Shown here: in pieces, positions 1 to 6,591 of the stretch
Numbering within the stretch: position 1 is the stretch's first letter
How the letters are laid out: every line of letters begins with the position of its first letter
Source: an uncultured Erysipelotrichaceae bacterium
GTDB taxonomy: Bacteria; Bacillota_I; Bacilli_A; Erysipelotrichales; Coprobacillaceae
DNA: 34,470 bases
Assembly (NCBI GenBank): GCA_951801965.1
Contig: CATOPA010000004.1
Coordinates: 1 to 34,470, forward strand
Direction: 5' to 3'
Notes under the pieces: generated by a model
The model's database searches: none
Seen by the model: only the letters and a program-made list of their open reading frames with translations
Told to the model about the DNA's origin: nothing
Translations under genes and position numbers: made by a program

Positions 1-995
1 TCATTTGCATAATTTAATAAAATAGACAATGATAAAAGTATGTTCATAACAACAAATGATAACAAAGATAAGAGAATATCTAATACATTTTGTAATGATA
101 TTGACATCATGGCGAGAATCAAAATATCACTCACAATAAACAAAATAATGTTTTTCTTTAAAAGCATCAAATCACTTCTTAAAAGACCACAATAAATCAT
201 CTTTAATTTCTGATTAATCCATTTTATTTGAATATTTTCATTAAGCCACGGAATAAAAACACGATGAATACTTAAATATAATCCAATCATGCCAATAATT
301 GAATAAAAAAGAAGACTACTCAAATCATCTTTACTCATATAGAAAAGAAGAACGGGTCCAATAAACAAAAGAAGACTTATTATCTTTACAGCATGTATAG
401 GAATATTGAATTTATATAAAGTAGGTATTTTTAATACTATCTTTGTATGTTCATTGTCTAATAATGTTTTTATAGAACAACGATATGTATATCCTAAATT
501 CAAAATTGTACACCATATGATTTCAAACCCTAAAATAATAGTAGTCGATATCATTGCATCTAAACGTATAGATATATAGCCTTGTGAATGTAACACATTG
601 ATTAAAACCTCATTGATGAAAGGAATGGCTGCCAGTGAACAAAATATACCTATTGGTATTGCAAATATAAAGAGTATAAAAGTTTGAAATAAAAGATACT
701 GAACGATTTGTAAATAAGTTCCACCACTCATCAACATCACAGCAATTGCTTTTGATTTCTTTTTGACATAAAAATCATTTGCAAAGAAAATAACAATCAT
801 ACAAATAACCAAAACAATAATAGTAAGATTTGTAGCCATATTTTTTTGACTATGAATAAAAGTAACGCCTACCATATCAGAATAAGAAAGATGAAAGAAT
901 AAAAACATGAACATTGATGTTAAAACAAACGTAAACCAATAAAATAATGATCTTGAAAAATCATTTTTTATAGATTGAATAGCTGATAAAATCAT
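1..995 (-). CDS. ABC transporter permease, FtsX-like, partial (continues beyond left edge)
   Basis: Reverse strand reads openly from ATG at 995 (MILSAIQSIKNDFSRSLFYWFTFVLTSMFMFLFFHLSYSD...) to the window edge with several hydrophobic segments. Start codon abuts the stop of the ATPase gene (996). Missing from the ORF track because it is truncated. Confidence 0.8.
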   Translation of the reverse strand, partial: MILSAIQSIKNDFSRSLFYWFTFVLTSMFMFLFFHLSYSDMVGVTFIHSQKNMATNLTIIVLVICMIVIFFANDFYVKKKSKAIAVMLMSGGTYLQIVQYLLFQTFILFIFAIPIGIFCSLAAIPFINEVLINVLHSQGYISIRLDAMISTTIILGFEIIWCTILNLGYTYRCSIKTLLDNEHTKIVLKIPTLYKFNIPIHAVKIISLLLFIGPVLLFYMSKDDLSSLLFYSIIGMIGLYLSIHRVFIPWLNENIQIKWINQKLKMIYCGLLRSDLMLLKKNIILFIVSDILILAMMSISLQNVLDILLSLLSFVVMNILLSLSILLNYAN

Positions 996-1763
996 TTATT
1001 TTGAAATAAGCTTCTTAGATTCAGAAGAATTCAATTCAACAATTTTTTGAAAAAAATCTTCTTGATTTAATAGTTCACGTTTTATTGTTTCTTGAATTTT
1101 TCCATCTTTAATATAGATAAGACGAGAAGAATAAGAAGCAATCATTGGGTCATGAGTCACCATAATAATTGTAACTCCTTGTTCATTTAAGTATTTAAAA
1201 ATATTTAAAAGTTCTTGTGAATTAGCACTATCTAAATTTCCAGTTGGTTCATCAGCAATAATCATCTTTGGTCTTGCAATTAATGCACGACATATTGCAG
1301 CCCTTTGCTTTTGTCCACCAGAGCATTCATATGGATACTTTTTTAAAAGTTCAAAGATATTCATCTTTTTTGCTATATCTTCAACTCTTTGATGAATTTC
1401 TTCTCTTTTTATTTTTGCTAAGGACAATGGCATTGCAATATTCTCATAAAGTGTATGTGTATCAAGTAAATGGAAGTCTTGAAAAACAAAACCAAGATTT
1501 TTATATCTAAATCTACCAATTTCATTAGCTGACATTGTTTTCACTTCAACACCATCTATATAAACCAAACCTGAAGTTGGCATATCTATTGTTGATATAT
1601 TATTAATAAAGGTTGATTTTCCACTTCCACTCGGTCCCATAATACATATGAATTCTCCCTCTCTCACCTCAAAATCAATATCATGAAGTGCTTCAAATTC
1701 ATTTTGTGTATGTAAACCATAAACTTTTTTTAATTTTTTGACTTGCAAAATTATATCTTCCAT
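996..1763 (-). CDS. ABC transporter ATP-binding protein (MacB/LolD/BceA-like)
   Basis: Walker A GPSGSGKST, signature SGGQKQR, Walker B MIIADEPTGNLDS. ORF track starts at 1781, but the internal ATG at 1763 has a better RBS (AAAGAGATGAGAAG). Confidence 0.9.
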   Translation of the reverse strand: MEDIILQVKKLKKVYGLHTQNEFEALHDIDFEVREGEFICIMGPSGSGKSTFINNISTIDMPTSGLVYIDGVEVKTMSANEIGRFRYKNLGFVFQDFHLLDTHTLYENIAMPLSLAKIKREEIHQRVEDIAKKMNIFELLKKYPYECSGGQKQRAAICRALIARPKMIIADEPTGNLDSANSQELLNIFKYLNEQGVTIIMVTHDPMIASYSSRLIYIKDGKIQETIKRELLNQEDFFQKIVELNSSESKKLISK

Positions 1764-1787
1764 CTTCTCATCTCTTTTCATATAAAA

Positions 1788-1816
1788 AGTATAACAGGGA
1801 ATATTAAAAAGGTAAA
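1788..1816 (-). promoter_or_regulatory. Candidate promoter for the ABC operon: -35 TTTACC (1811-1816), -10 TATACT (1788-1793), 17 bp spacer
   Basis: Read on the reverse strand; spacing counted by eye. Confidence 0.55.
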
Positions 1817-1835
1817 CGATAATATTTACCTTTTT
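1806..1835. promoter_or_regulatory. 11 bp perfect inverted repeat AAAAAGGTAAA-N8-TTTACCTTTTT covering the -35 of the ABC promoter
   Basis: Directly visible; lies between divergent genes. Confidence 0.6.
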
Positions 1836-1837
1836 AT

Positions 1838-1888
1838 TTAGAGCAATATGTTCTAAATAACTTAAGAACGAATTGCTCTAATTATAAT
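1838..1888 (+). promoter_or_regulatory. Nested palindromic operator TTAGAGCAAT...ATTGCTCTAA (1838-1881) plus -10 TATAAT (1883-1888)
   Basis: 44 bp imperfect inverted repeat made of two smaller TTAGAgCAAT/TGTTCTAA-type half palindromes; near-copy at 2654-2704. Confidence 0.7.
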
Positions 1889-1906
1889 AGATTTGAGGTG
1901 ATCATT

Positions 1907-2107
1907 TTGAAACTAAAAAAATTAAAAGATCTTCGTGAAGACCATGACTATACTCAAGCAGAAGTTGCCAAAATGGTCAACATTACACAACGTTCTTACT
2001 CTCACTATGAAAATGGTGAAAGAAGTATCCCTTTAGAAGTCCTTGGTAGACTTGCTGATTTGTATAATGTTTCTGTTGATTATATCATGGATAGAGAAAC
2101 AAAATAG
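1907..2107 (+). CDS. XRE-family HTH regulator, small (copy 1)
   Basis: HTH pattern KLKDLREDHDYTQAEVAKMVNITQRSYSHYENGERSIPLEVLGRLADLYNVSVDYIM. RBS GAGGTGATC, likely TTG start at 1907 (ORF track gives GTG at 1898). Confidence 0.9.
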   Translation: MKLKKLKDLREDHDYTQAEVAKMVNITQRSYSHYENGERSIPLEVLGRLADLYNVSVDYIMDRETK

Positions 2108-2110
2108 CTT

Positions 2111-2596
2111 TTATATGCACACAAATTTACTCTCATACTCTTCTTTTTTCTTGATAAATTCTTGGGACAATTTCTTCATTTCTTTATAATAAATACTGTC
2201 TAAATAGACAAGACTCAAAATTCTAATTGCAACCAATACCAAGTCAATAATAACTGGTATAACAAAAACAATCAAATATAAATGACCCCACAATAAAAGA
2301 GTAGACATAGATAAACTAAAAACAATAAAACTCACACCAAAAAGCTGTTCTATATATGCTTCATTGATACAATCACACCAAAATTTTCTAAACCCATCAA
2401 ATCTCTTCATTGATAAAAGATTCTGATAAACAAATGTTGTCTTTTCATAAACATCAGGATAATATCTTTCATCCCAACTTGTAATATACACAGTTTCTGT
2501 TTTATTAACAGCCTCTGAAAAATGTTTAACCATTTTTTTATAAAGACAAACATTATTTTTTATATTTTCACTGTCTGTAAAAATAAAATTCTTCAT
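2111..2596 (-). CDS. Hypothetical membrane protein (two or more hydrophobic segments)
   Basis: ORF with hydrophobic stretch FSLSMSTLLLWGHLYLIVFVIPVIIDLVLVAIRILSLVYL; convergent with XRE copy 1 and divergent from XRE copy 2. Confidence 0.6.
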   Translation of the reverse strand: MKNFIFTDSENIKNNVCLYKKMVKHFSEAVNKTETVYITSWDERYYPDVYEKTTFVYQNLLSMKRFDGFRKFWCDCINEAYIEQLFGVSFIVFSLSMSTLLLWGHLYLIVFVIPVIIDLVLVAIRILSLVYLDSIYYKEMKKLSQEFIKKKEEYESKFVCI

Positions 2597-2653
2597 TCTT
2601 TCTAATAAAGTCTTTATAGCTTCATCCTCCTTTTCCTATCTCTCAATATTATT

Positions 2654-2704
2654 TTAGAGCAATTTGTTCTAAAAAACAATAGAACAATTCGTACTAATTA
2701 TAAT
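2654..2704 (+). promoter_or_regulatory. Second copy of nested operator TTAGAGCAATTTGTTCTAA...AGAACAATTCGTACTAA (2654-2697) plus TATAAT (2699-2704)
   Basis: Near-identical to 1838-1888 with the same offset to the -10. Confidence 0.7.
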
Positions 2705-2722
2705 ATTTTTGAGGTGATGAGA

Positions 2723-2923
2723 ATGCTATTAAAAAGACTCATTGATTTGCGTGAAAGTCAAAACTTAAAGCAAAAAGAAATTGCTGCTTTTATTAATATC
2801 AGTACCCGCTCATATTCTCACTATGAAAGAGGTGATAGGAGTATTCCCTTGGAAATACTTATTCGTCTTGCTGATTTCTATGATGTCTCTCTTGATTATA
2901 TCGTTGGTAGAAAAGACAAATAA
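2723..2923 (+). CDS. XRE-family HTH regulator, small (copy 2, paralog of copy 1)
   Basis: LLKRLIDLRESQNLKQKEIAAFINISTRSYSHYERGDRSIPLEILIRLADFYDVSLDYIVGRK; RBS GAGGTGATGAG, start ATG 2723. Confidence 0.9.
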   Translation: MLLKRLIDLRESQNLKQKEIAAFINISTRSYSHYERGDRSIPLEILIRLADFYDVSLDYIVGRKDK

Positions 2924-3109: not shown

Positions 3110-5521
3110 TTATAATGTTTGTTCTGTTCTTCCAATAATATCATCTTGTGTTGCTTTTGATAAAACATTAAAGAAAGCTGAATAACCTGCAACCCTTACA
3201 ATGAGATCTTTATGCTTCTCTGGATGCTTTTGGGCATCTATCAATGTATCACGAGAAACAACATTGTATTGAACATGGTATCCATCTAATCTATTGAAAA
3301 ATGTTTTAATCAGCATTTCTAATTTCTCTATATTTTCTTTGCGAGATAACATTTGTGGTGTCACTTTTTGATTCAACAAAACTCCACCAGTAATTTCATG
3401 AGTAGGTAACTTAGAGACTGACTTAAAGACTGCTGTTGGACCACTCTTATCCATAGAATGTACTGGTGAGCATCCTTCAGCAAGTGGTGTTCGCGCTTTA
3501 CGTCCATCTGGTGTTGCCATTGTTGTCATTCCTTGTCCGACATTTGCTGAAATAGATGATGTACCACCATAACGAATACCTCCAATAGGTCCTCTTTGGT
3601 GGCGAGTATTTGGATATTTTTTAATTTCATCAAGATAAACTTGATAGACATCAACAACCAACTGATCTACATAATCATTATCATTCCCATACTTTGGTGC
3701 TTCATGAATAAGCATGTGTTGAATGCGTTGAGATTCAACACTTGAAAAATCATCAAGCATAGCATTCCACAATTGTTGAGGTGTTATCTTCTTTTCTTCA
3801 TAAACAAGCTTTTTGATAGCAGCTAAACTATCTGCCATATTTGCTATACCAACTTGAAGACCAGAAATAAAGTCGTATATTGCGCCACCTTCTTTAAGTG
3901 TCTTTCCTCTGCCAATACAATCTTGTGTTAATGCTGAGCATAAAATATCTGGAACTTCTCTTTCTAATGCTAAATCAATAGCATTTTCAACAATAACACT
4001 CATTCGTGTTAAATGTCGGATTGCTTTTTCTATTGCTTGTGATAACTCTTCATATGACTTCATATCTTTAAAGTAGCCATTTCCATCAAAGAACTTTTTC
4101 CCACTTGTCATATCCACACCATTATTCATGACCATTAATAAGATTCTAGGGAAGTTCATATAACTCATACCAGTACATCTATATCCCCACTTCCCAGGAA
4201 CTGCTGTTTCAACACATCCTATAGCCGAATAATTATAAGCGTCTTCTTCTTTTACACCTTTTTCAATAAATGATGGAATAATAACCTCATCAGAATTAAA
4301 TGCAGGCATTCCTGTTCCTAGTTTCATAACTTCTATAGCTTCGTCCAAGAATTTTTTAGGCATGTTTTTATGATATCTTACTGTTAAATTAGGCTGTGGA
4401 AGTCTTGTTTGAGCAACTGATTTTAAAACTAAATATGATAATTCATTTGTTGCATCTTTTTTATCTGGTGTTTGTCCACCAATCGTTACATTTTGATACA
4501 TTGGACTTCCAGCACTACTTAATGTATGTGATTGACTACGCACCTTATTAATTGTTAATGTTTTGATCCATAAATTATTTAAAATATCTATAACTTCATC
4601 ATCATTAATTATTCCGTTTTCTTTATCATGTTTATAATAAGGATATATATATTGATCAAAACGCCCATATGATAAAGAATGACCATTAGATTCAATTTGC
4701 AAAATTAATTGTATAAACCACGTTGATTGAACTGCTTCTAAAAAACTTTCAGCTGGATAATAAGGGACTTTTTTACAAATACGACTGATTTCTAATAACT
4801 CTTTTTTTCTCTTATCATCAGCTTGATCAGCCATTTCTTTCGCTAACAAAGAAAAGCGTTCAGCATAAGTCTTCACTGCCTCAATAACAATCAGTACAGC
4901 TTTATAAAACTGATACTTATCAATATTTTCTGCCACACAAAGATCTAATTCAGACTTCAATTGAAGAACTCTTTCTTCATAACCTTTTAATCCTTTTTCT
5001 AAAACCTGTTGATAATCAACAGCAAGATGCGCATCTCCTGAATTTAATTTTCCTTCCATACCAAAAAATCCAGTTTCCATATAAACACTCACTTCATCAG
5101 GCAGCAATGCACCTCCCTTACTCCTTAAATTATTATTTTCCCAAAAAGGTGCAATACTTCTAAGCTCTTCTTTTGTCTTCTCAGTAATATAAAAAACATC
5201 TCCATCTCTTTTTTCAAACAAATCCAATTCATTCATGACAAATTCTAAAGTATATTCAGGAAATATAGGTGCATCTCGAGGTGATGATGCTTGGTTACCA
5301 ACAATCAAAGTTTCATCCTCAATATAAATAGACATCTTTTCCAAAACATTCTTCAACATCAAAGCACGTTTCATGACAACTGGCTGATCTTGATAGTTCT
5401 TGTATGCCTCTGTTACAAGCAATGCACGTTGTGCATCAATAAATGGTTTTTTATTTAATACTTTTTCTCTAAATTGATTCATTCTTGGTGATATTTTTCC
5501 AAAGTGTCCTGTGTTTTCCAT
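3110..5521 (-). CDS. Glycyl radical enzyme (PFL superfamily, non-PFL eliminase-type active site; substrate unknown)
   Basis: C-terminal glycyl radical motif RVAGYSAFF; single active-site Cys in IGCVE rather than the Cys-Cys of true PFL; ~800 aa. Confidence 0.93.
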   Translation of the reverse strand: MENTGHFGKISPRMNQFREKVLNKKPFIDAQRALLVTEAYKNYQDQPVVMKRALMLKNVLEKMSIYIEDETLIVGNQASSPRDAPIFPEYTLEFVMNELDLFEKRDGDVFYITEKTKEELRSIAPFWENNNLRSKGGALLPDEVSVYMETGFFGMEGKLNSGDAHLAVDYQQVLEKGLKGYEERVLQLKSELDLCVAENIDKYQFYKAVLIVIEAVKTYAERFSLLAKEMADQADDKRKKELLEISRICKKVPYYPAESFLEAVQSTWFIQLILQIESNGHSLSYGRFDQYIYPYYKHDKENGIINDDEVIDILNNLWIKTLTINKVRSQSHTLSSAGSPMYQNVTIGGQTPDKKDATNELSYLVLKSVAQTRLPQPNLTVRYHKNMPKKFLDEAIEVMKLGTGMPAFNSDEVIIPSFIEKGVKEEDAYNYSAIGCVETAVPGKWGYRCTGMSYMNFPRILLMVMNNGVDMTSGKKFFDGNGYFKDMKSYEELSQAIEKAIRHLTRMSVIVENAIDLALEREVPDILCSALTQDCIGRGKTLKEGGAIYDFISGLQVGIANMADSLAAIKKLVYEEKKITPQQLWNAMLDDFSSVESQRIQHMLIHEAPKYGNDNDYVDQLVVDVYQVYLDEIKKYPNTRHQRGPIGGIRYGGTSSISANVGQGMTTMATPDGRKARTPLAEGCSPVHSMDKSGPTAVFKSVSKLPTHEITGGVLLNQKVTPQMLSRKENIEKLEMLIKTFFNRLDGYHVQYNVVSRDTLIDAQKHPEKHKDLIVRVAGYSAFFNVLSKATQDDIIGRTEQTL

Positions 5522-5537
5522 AGTTTTCTCCTATCTA

Positions 5538-5549
5538 TTTCATTTGAAA
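5538..5549. promoter_or_regulatory. Candidate operator TTTCATTTGAAA (copy 1)
   Basis: TTTCA-N2-TGAAA palindrome; identical 12-mer at 5631-5642 in the same divergent intergenic region. Confidence 0.5.
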
Positions 5550-5630
5550 TAAAAATATATTTCATTTATACATATATTATATAATATTTTATATTAAAAT
5601 CAATTATTTTTCATAAAAAGTTTATTTTAC

Positions 5631-5642
5631 TTTCATTTGAAA
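5631..5642. promoter_or_regulatory. Candidate operator TTTCATTTGAAA (copy 2)
   Basis: Identical to 5538-5549. Confidence 0.5.
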
Positions 5643-5700
5643 CATATTTACTTTCATATTTAACTATGATAAGATATGATTAAAGCAAAGGAGATAATCT

Positions 5701-6591
5701 ATGAGTCAAGGAATCATATTTAATATTCAAAAATTTAGTCTTCACGATGGTCCTGGAATTAGGACAACTGTTTTTTTTAAAGGATGTCCTTTAAAATGTC
5801 AATGGTGTGCAAATCCAGAATCACAACTCAAAAGGATACAAATTTTACATGATCAAAAAAAGTGTGTTCATTGTTTATCATGTTTACAGGCATGTCCTCA
5901 TCAAGCAATAAAATTTATTGGTGATCATATTCAATTTCATGACTGTCATGGTTGCCTTCAATGTCTTCAACATTGTCCACAAAATGCGCTCTCTTTTGAA
6001 GGAGAATACAAAAGTGTTCAAGAGGTTGTAGATATTTGTTTACAAGATCAAGATTTTTATGAAGAATCGCATGGTGGTGTGACTTTTTCTGGTGGAGAAG
6101 CCATGAGTCAACCTGATTTTGCTAAGGAACTTGTTTATGCCTTAAAGAAACATCATCTTCATGTTGCCATTGAAACAACTGGATATGCTAAAGAAGAGAT
6201 TTTTTGTGAGTTAGCACCTCTGTTTGATTTGTTATTGTTTGATGTTAAGCATTATGATACACAAAAACATTATGAAGGAACAGGTGTATATCATGAACTT
6301 ATTATAAAAAATTTAAAATGGGCTATTGCTCATCACATTGAAGTCCTTGTCAGAATTCCTGTGATTCCTGGATTTAATGCAGCTATAGAAGATGCTTATG
6401 GCTTTGCGGACTTATTAAAAAACCTTCACATTTCAAAAGTTCAGCTTTTACCTTTTCACCAATTTGGCGAAAAAAAATATGAACTTCTTCATAAGGATTA
6501 TGCTTATAAAAATAAAAAAGCCCTCTATCCAGAGGACCTTAAAGATTATCAGCAGATATTTATAAATAAAGGTCTTGATTGTTTCTTTTAA
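5701..6591 (+). CDS. Glycyl radical enzyme activating enzyme (radical SAM, with two extra ferredoxin-like 4Fe-4S motifs)
   Basis: HDGPGIRTTVFFKGCPLKCQWCANPESQ, CVHCLSCLQACP, CHGCLQCLQHCP, FSGGEAMSQ; RBS AAAGGAG. Confidence 0.93.
   Translation: MSQGIIFNIQKFSLHDGPGIRTTVFFKGCPLKCQWCANPESQLKRIQILHDQKKCVHCLSCLQACPHQAIKFIGDHIQFHDCHGCLQCLQHCPQNALSFEGEYKSVQEVVDICLQDQDFYEESHGGVTFSGGEAMSQPDFAKELVYALKKHHLHVAIETTGYAKEEIFCELAPLFDLLLFDVKHYDTQKHYEGTGVYHELIIKNLKWAIAHHIEVLVRIPVIPGFNAAIEDAYGFADLLKNLHISKVQLLPFHQFGEKKYELLHKDYAYKNKKALYPEDLKDYQQIFINKGLDCFF

Follow-up and report, generated by a model that had tools for sequence, protein, structure and literature searches.

A duplicated XRE regulator pair with paired palindromic operators, most likely a self-repressing module, in an uncultured Erysipelotrichaceae bacterium

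Two small XRE regulators, XRE1 and XRE2, near the start of the window (the whole 34,470-nucleotide stretch analyzed here) most likely constitute an ordinary duplicated self-repressing module and not a switch dedicated to the adjoining genes, since many related genes of other gut bacteria are preceded by the same operator layout. Judging from sequence comparison, it is quite probable that each XRE protein places a dimer on each of two 17-bp palindromes lying 25 bp apart and represses its own promoter, and that the paralogues repress each other as well.

Results

XRE1 (1907..2107) and XRE2 (2723..2923) are both encoded on the plus strand, with a start-to-start distance of 816 bp. The first-pass annotation had described two regulators of about 67 aa some 800 bp apart; both reading frames are present, and the size was corrected to 66 aa. 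The TTG at 1907 and the ATG at 2723, which match the starts of homologues, are most likely the initiation codons. Both proteins belong to HTH_3 (PF01381; 4.5e-18 and 1.9e-16, with 65.5 and 60.3 bits against a gathering score of 23) and are 60% identical. Their recognition helices, ITQRSYSHYE in XRE1 and ISTRSYSHYE in XRE2, are nearly the same, and the variable residue of the YSxYE motif is H in both. Likeness at the DNA level starts at the operator's left edge (1837 and 2653, respectively) and continues into the genes, with 71% identity in a stretch of 132 nt and 77% in one of 124 nt. Scores for more specialized families fell below their cut-offs, namely RstR (NF041951; 52.8 and 55.3 bits against a curated cut-off of 80) and the type II antitoxins PezA (40.2 bits against 290) and HipB (24.4 against 79). 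In addition, no toxin-like reading frame was seen downstream of either gene in the window, and no endonuclease or methyltransferase was linked to the pair as in a restriction-modification controller, the immediate neighbors being an ABC transporter, a hydrophobic reading frame and a glycyl radical enzyme.

Each gene is preceded by a block of two 17-bp palindromes of the TAG-N11-CTA type, the starts of which are 25 bp apart. The predicted sites of copy 1 occupy 1839..1855 (TAGAGCAATATGTTCTA) and 1864..1880 (AAGAACGAATTGCTCTA), and those of copy 2 occupy 2655..2671 (TAGAGCAATTTGTTCTA) and 2680..2696 (TAGAACAATTCGTACTA). As had been noted earlier, a -10 element directly follows each block: TATAAT lies 2 bp 3' of the second palindrome on the plus strand in both copies (1883..1888 and 2699..2704), is supported by homologues, in which the XRE1 element has the same position, and is followed by GAGGTGAT, the ribosome-binding site. 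Neither promoter shows a strong -35. Judged by the -10, transcription of XRE1 would start near 1895, which would put site 1 at about -56 to -40 and site 2 at about -31 to -15. In both copies site 1 is a better palindrome than site 2, site 2 of copy 1 lacks one outer TAG, and AAC and AGC half-sites occur in both copies. The description of each block as a large inverted repeat made of two smaller ones held for the two palindromes, while the exact outer repeat TTAGAGCAAT...ATTGCTCTAA was found at copy 1 only. The near-identity claimed for the two blocks was confirmed, the best ungapped 60-nt match between the 70-nt upstream regions being 48/60 compared with 26 on average and at most 32 after shuffling; common descent alone could be enough for this likeness. 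By palindromy alone, the copy-1 pair is within chance (p 0.16) and the copy-2 pair is marginal (p 0.0025 with the spacing fixed at 25 bp, 0.054 with any spacing allowed). Because palindromy within the window is this weak, the case for the sites rests on homologues.

Homologues were searched for in 43 genomes of the family, 316 of the order, 392 of the phylum and 299 Lachnospiraceae-centred genomes, together with named and viral contigs, and yielded 145 distinct upstream regions. The closest-homologue set comprised 52 members, four loci (L105, L110, L111, L148) having been kept out of it since several HTH domains within a single long frame account for their E-values. The repeats proved to be conserved in related genomes: a TAG-type pair at exactly 25 bp was present in 25 of these 52 homologues, about half having no scoring pair, compared with 0-7 for each of the other spacings (18 to 35) and with 0.14 on average and at most 2 for the 25-bp pair in shuffled upstream regions. 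The 25-bp spacing was prominent by two different measures, and a -10 lay 1-3 bp past site 2 in many members. Furthermore, the same layout and spacing stood before homologues from other families and Lachnospiraceae at 45-60% protein identity, and the window operators aligned with those of the relatives G243 and G218 across the whole block. A palindromic operator before the own gene, as expected of an XRE/HTH_3 member, is thus found in the window and kept in homologues. One further locus (L063) carries three TAGCGG-N5-CCGCTA-type sites in 25-bp steps, not two, upstream of an XRE gene at 1494.

The genome-wide scan that the first-pass annotation had suggested was performed with three mismatches allowed and showed the element to be rare, with close matches only at the XRE1 and XRE2 loci. 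The next best match (C131, two mismatches) fell inside a 679-aa reading frame. Among the candidate sites elsewhere, which also included C89 and C95 (three mismatches), the four examined (C131, C34, C72 and C79) lay within reading frames, so a wider regulon is not supported.

The orientation of the neighboring genes is as initially described. Divergent from XRE1 is an ABC operon on the minus strand, comprising an ATPase gene (FtsE/LolD/MacB-like, 996..1781, with the inner ATG at 1763 as the probable start) and a permease gene with an FtsX domain (1..995, cut by the contig end). Its promoter, TTTACC-17-TATACT (1788..1816, minus strand), is separate from that of XRE1 and lies 23 bp from the XRE1 operator. 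A perfect 12-bp inverted repeat, TAAAAAGGTAAA-N8-TTTACCTTTTTA (1805..1836), covers the -35 of the ABC promoter, is unrelated to the XRE sites and may be the site of some other regulator. Divergent from XRE2 is a 161-aa reading frame with a long hydrophobic stretch (2111..2596, minus strand) and no family match, for which no homologue was found in 316 genomes of the order or in plasmids. No good ribosome-binding site precedes its putative start ATG at 2596 (2590-2635), and AAAGGAGG occurs about 34 nt upstream of this ATG, 8 nt before an in-frame ATA. The window also carries, at 3110-6591, divergent genes for an 803-aa glycyl radical enzyme of the PFL2 type and for the 296-aa enzyme that activates it; the former scored under the cut-offs of all characterized types scanned. 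In other genomes the neighbors, named here from readings of their sequences, change completely while the operator is kept: within the same family, the XRE homologue of one genus diverges from a ThiF-like gene and converges with a kinase-like gene, that in another family lies near purA, a HAD hydrolase gene and a SpoU-like methylase gene, and those in Petralouisia, Butyrivibrio and others stand beside still other genes.

The triplet of the half-site, the three bases inside TAG, varies between members and tracks the variable YSxYE residue. Proteins with YS-R-YE mostly go with ACC (30 half-sites; next TCC with 8), those with YS-H-YE with AAC (19; next CCC with 8) and those with YS-N-YE with CGG (15; next 2), and YS-Y-YE and YS-D-YE go with AAC and CGG, respectively. 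Exceptions were L173, an H protein with CCC/TCC/ACC, and L140, a Y protein with ATA. Seven residue changes and six triplet changes were counted on the tree, too few independent changes for significance in the test of independence, and the independent evidence for the link is slight because the residue classes are almost clades.

Tandem XRE copies sharing the YSxYE residue were observed in the window and in G036, G038, G243 and G651, and such same-class copies recur in other lineages. The single XRE gene of G218 (L080:4975-5176) resembles XRE1 of G243 in its first half and XRE2 of G243 in its second (L079:3968-4456) and so looks like a fusion, as if a tandem pair had been collapsed by recombination. 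The G243 pair is adjoined by a gene for the transposon-encoded protein TnpV (PF14198; L079:4512-4859), which suggests that this copy resides in a mobile element.

Discussion

Starting from the genes, the sites and the conservation in homologues of the spacing and of the -10 position observed here, we infer binding, repression, cooperativity and cross-binding as follows. XRE1 and XRE2 would act as one-domain Cro/CI-type repressors, with one dimer on each 17-bp palindrome. Site 2 would lie between the -35 and -10 regions, where its occupancy would exclude RNA polymerase and cause autorepression, and the protein would keep its own level low in this way. Site 1 would probably contribute cooperative binding. 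Each paralogue is likely to repress the other too, probably through mixed dimers as well, and such cross-repression is expected because both have kept the same operator and the same recognition residues (H type). The autoregulation or cross-talk between paralogues suggested by the first-pass annotation is, on sequence comparison, well supported by the shared consensus, the near-identical helices and the layout kept in homologues.

The same annotation had proposed an envelope-stress, export or immunity switch operating with the divergent partners. Bidirectional operators, through which XRE1 and XRE2 would also control the ABC operon and the membrane-protein gene as a small envelope/export switch, would accord with the divergence of both neighbors and with the position of site 1 on their side of the intergenic region, and a divergent reading frame with a similar GGAGGATGAAG leader is present in the nearest relative, G243, too. 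We nevertheless regard such control as unlikely, given that the ABC promoter stands apart from site 1 and has an inverted repeat of its own next to it, copy 2 showed no divergent promoter of consensus type, homologues keep the operator beside ThiF-like and kinase-like genes or purA and a HAD hydrolase gene, and the 161-aa protein lacks a homologue in the order. Because the neighbors vary, the 161-aa frame has no homologue and the ABC operon has a promoter of its own, it is most likely the XRE genes themselves that are controlled through these operators; the ABC operon and the membrane-protein gene are probably incidental neighbors. A tempting but unsupported tie of the regulators to the transporter and the membrane protein is thereby removed for the window.

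A small XRE protein, two predicted dimer sites and a weak -35 would also suit controller-like regulation, in which site 1 (centre about -48) activates at low occupancy and repression sets in once site 2 (about -23) is filled, so that a delayed set-point or a switch would result. It is improbable here, as no restriction-modification gene was found next to the XRE genes and, of the two palindromes in each copy, that of site 1 is the better. The block likeness might otherwise be a mere residue of recent duplication with functionless repeats, and indeed genes and blocks are alike to a similar degree (71-77%) and palindromy is weak in the window alone; the recurrence of the same layout and spacing before homologues of 45-60% protein identity in other families and Lachnospiraceae makes this explanation very hard to sustain. 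Duplicated self-repression remains the preferred reading.

Looking beyond the window, it is quite possible, and we propose it tentatively, that these proteins represent widespread stand-alone, mostly one-domain XRE autoregulators of Bacillota, with a rigid operator TAG-NNN-N5-NNN-CTA occurring twice at 25 bp, an inner triplet read by the YSxYE residue as a simple code, and tandem paralogues that keep the code and cross-repress. If the residue-triplet link is true, the operators of many unstudied XRE genes could become predictable from sequence. In addition, tandem paralogues with one operator would then offer a handy natural test of paralogue interference.

Several known systems resemble the module. 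ImmR serves as the immunity repressor of a mobile element and has an anti-repressor protease as its partner. Likewise a small XRE repressor, ImmR of ICEBs1 (PDB 7t8i) is the closest solved sequence to the window XREs (2.5e-16), whereas no anti-repressor protease partner was found next to the window genes. The RstR phage repressor family (NF041951) gave the best NCBIfam match over the XRE helix-turn-helix, but no phage genes were seen at the XRE locus. In restriction-modification systems, two dimers of the C (controller) protein bind at two sites (PMC6237814). Like the window XREs, C proteins are small XRE proteins with two dimer sites (predicted here) in their own promoter; unlike them, the window XREs have no adjoining restriction-modification genes and no family match to C proteins. 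Paired sites at a fixed spacing, or the present lineages, are not mentioned in the main text of a 2025 survey of XRE proteins (PMC12565409), and no paired 25-bp layout was found in the other literature searched. In that survey, thousands of XRE proteins had a palindromic motif upstream, and EMSA confirmed 9 of 10 tested, which makes palindrome-based autoregulation the rule in this family (PMC12565409). The window XREs share with these surveyed autoregulators the XRE helix-turn-helix, the palindrome before the own gene and the expected binding as dimers.
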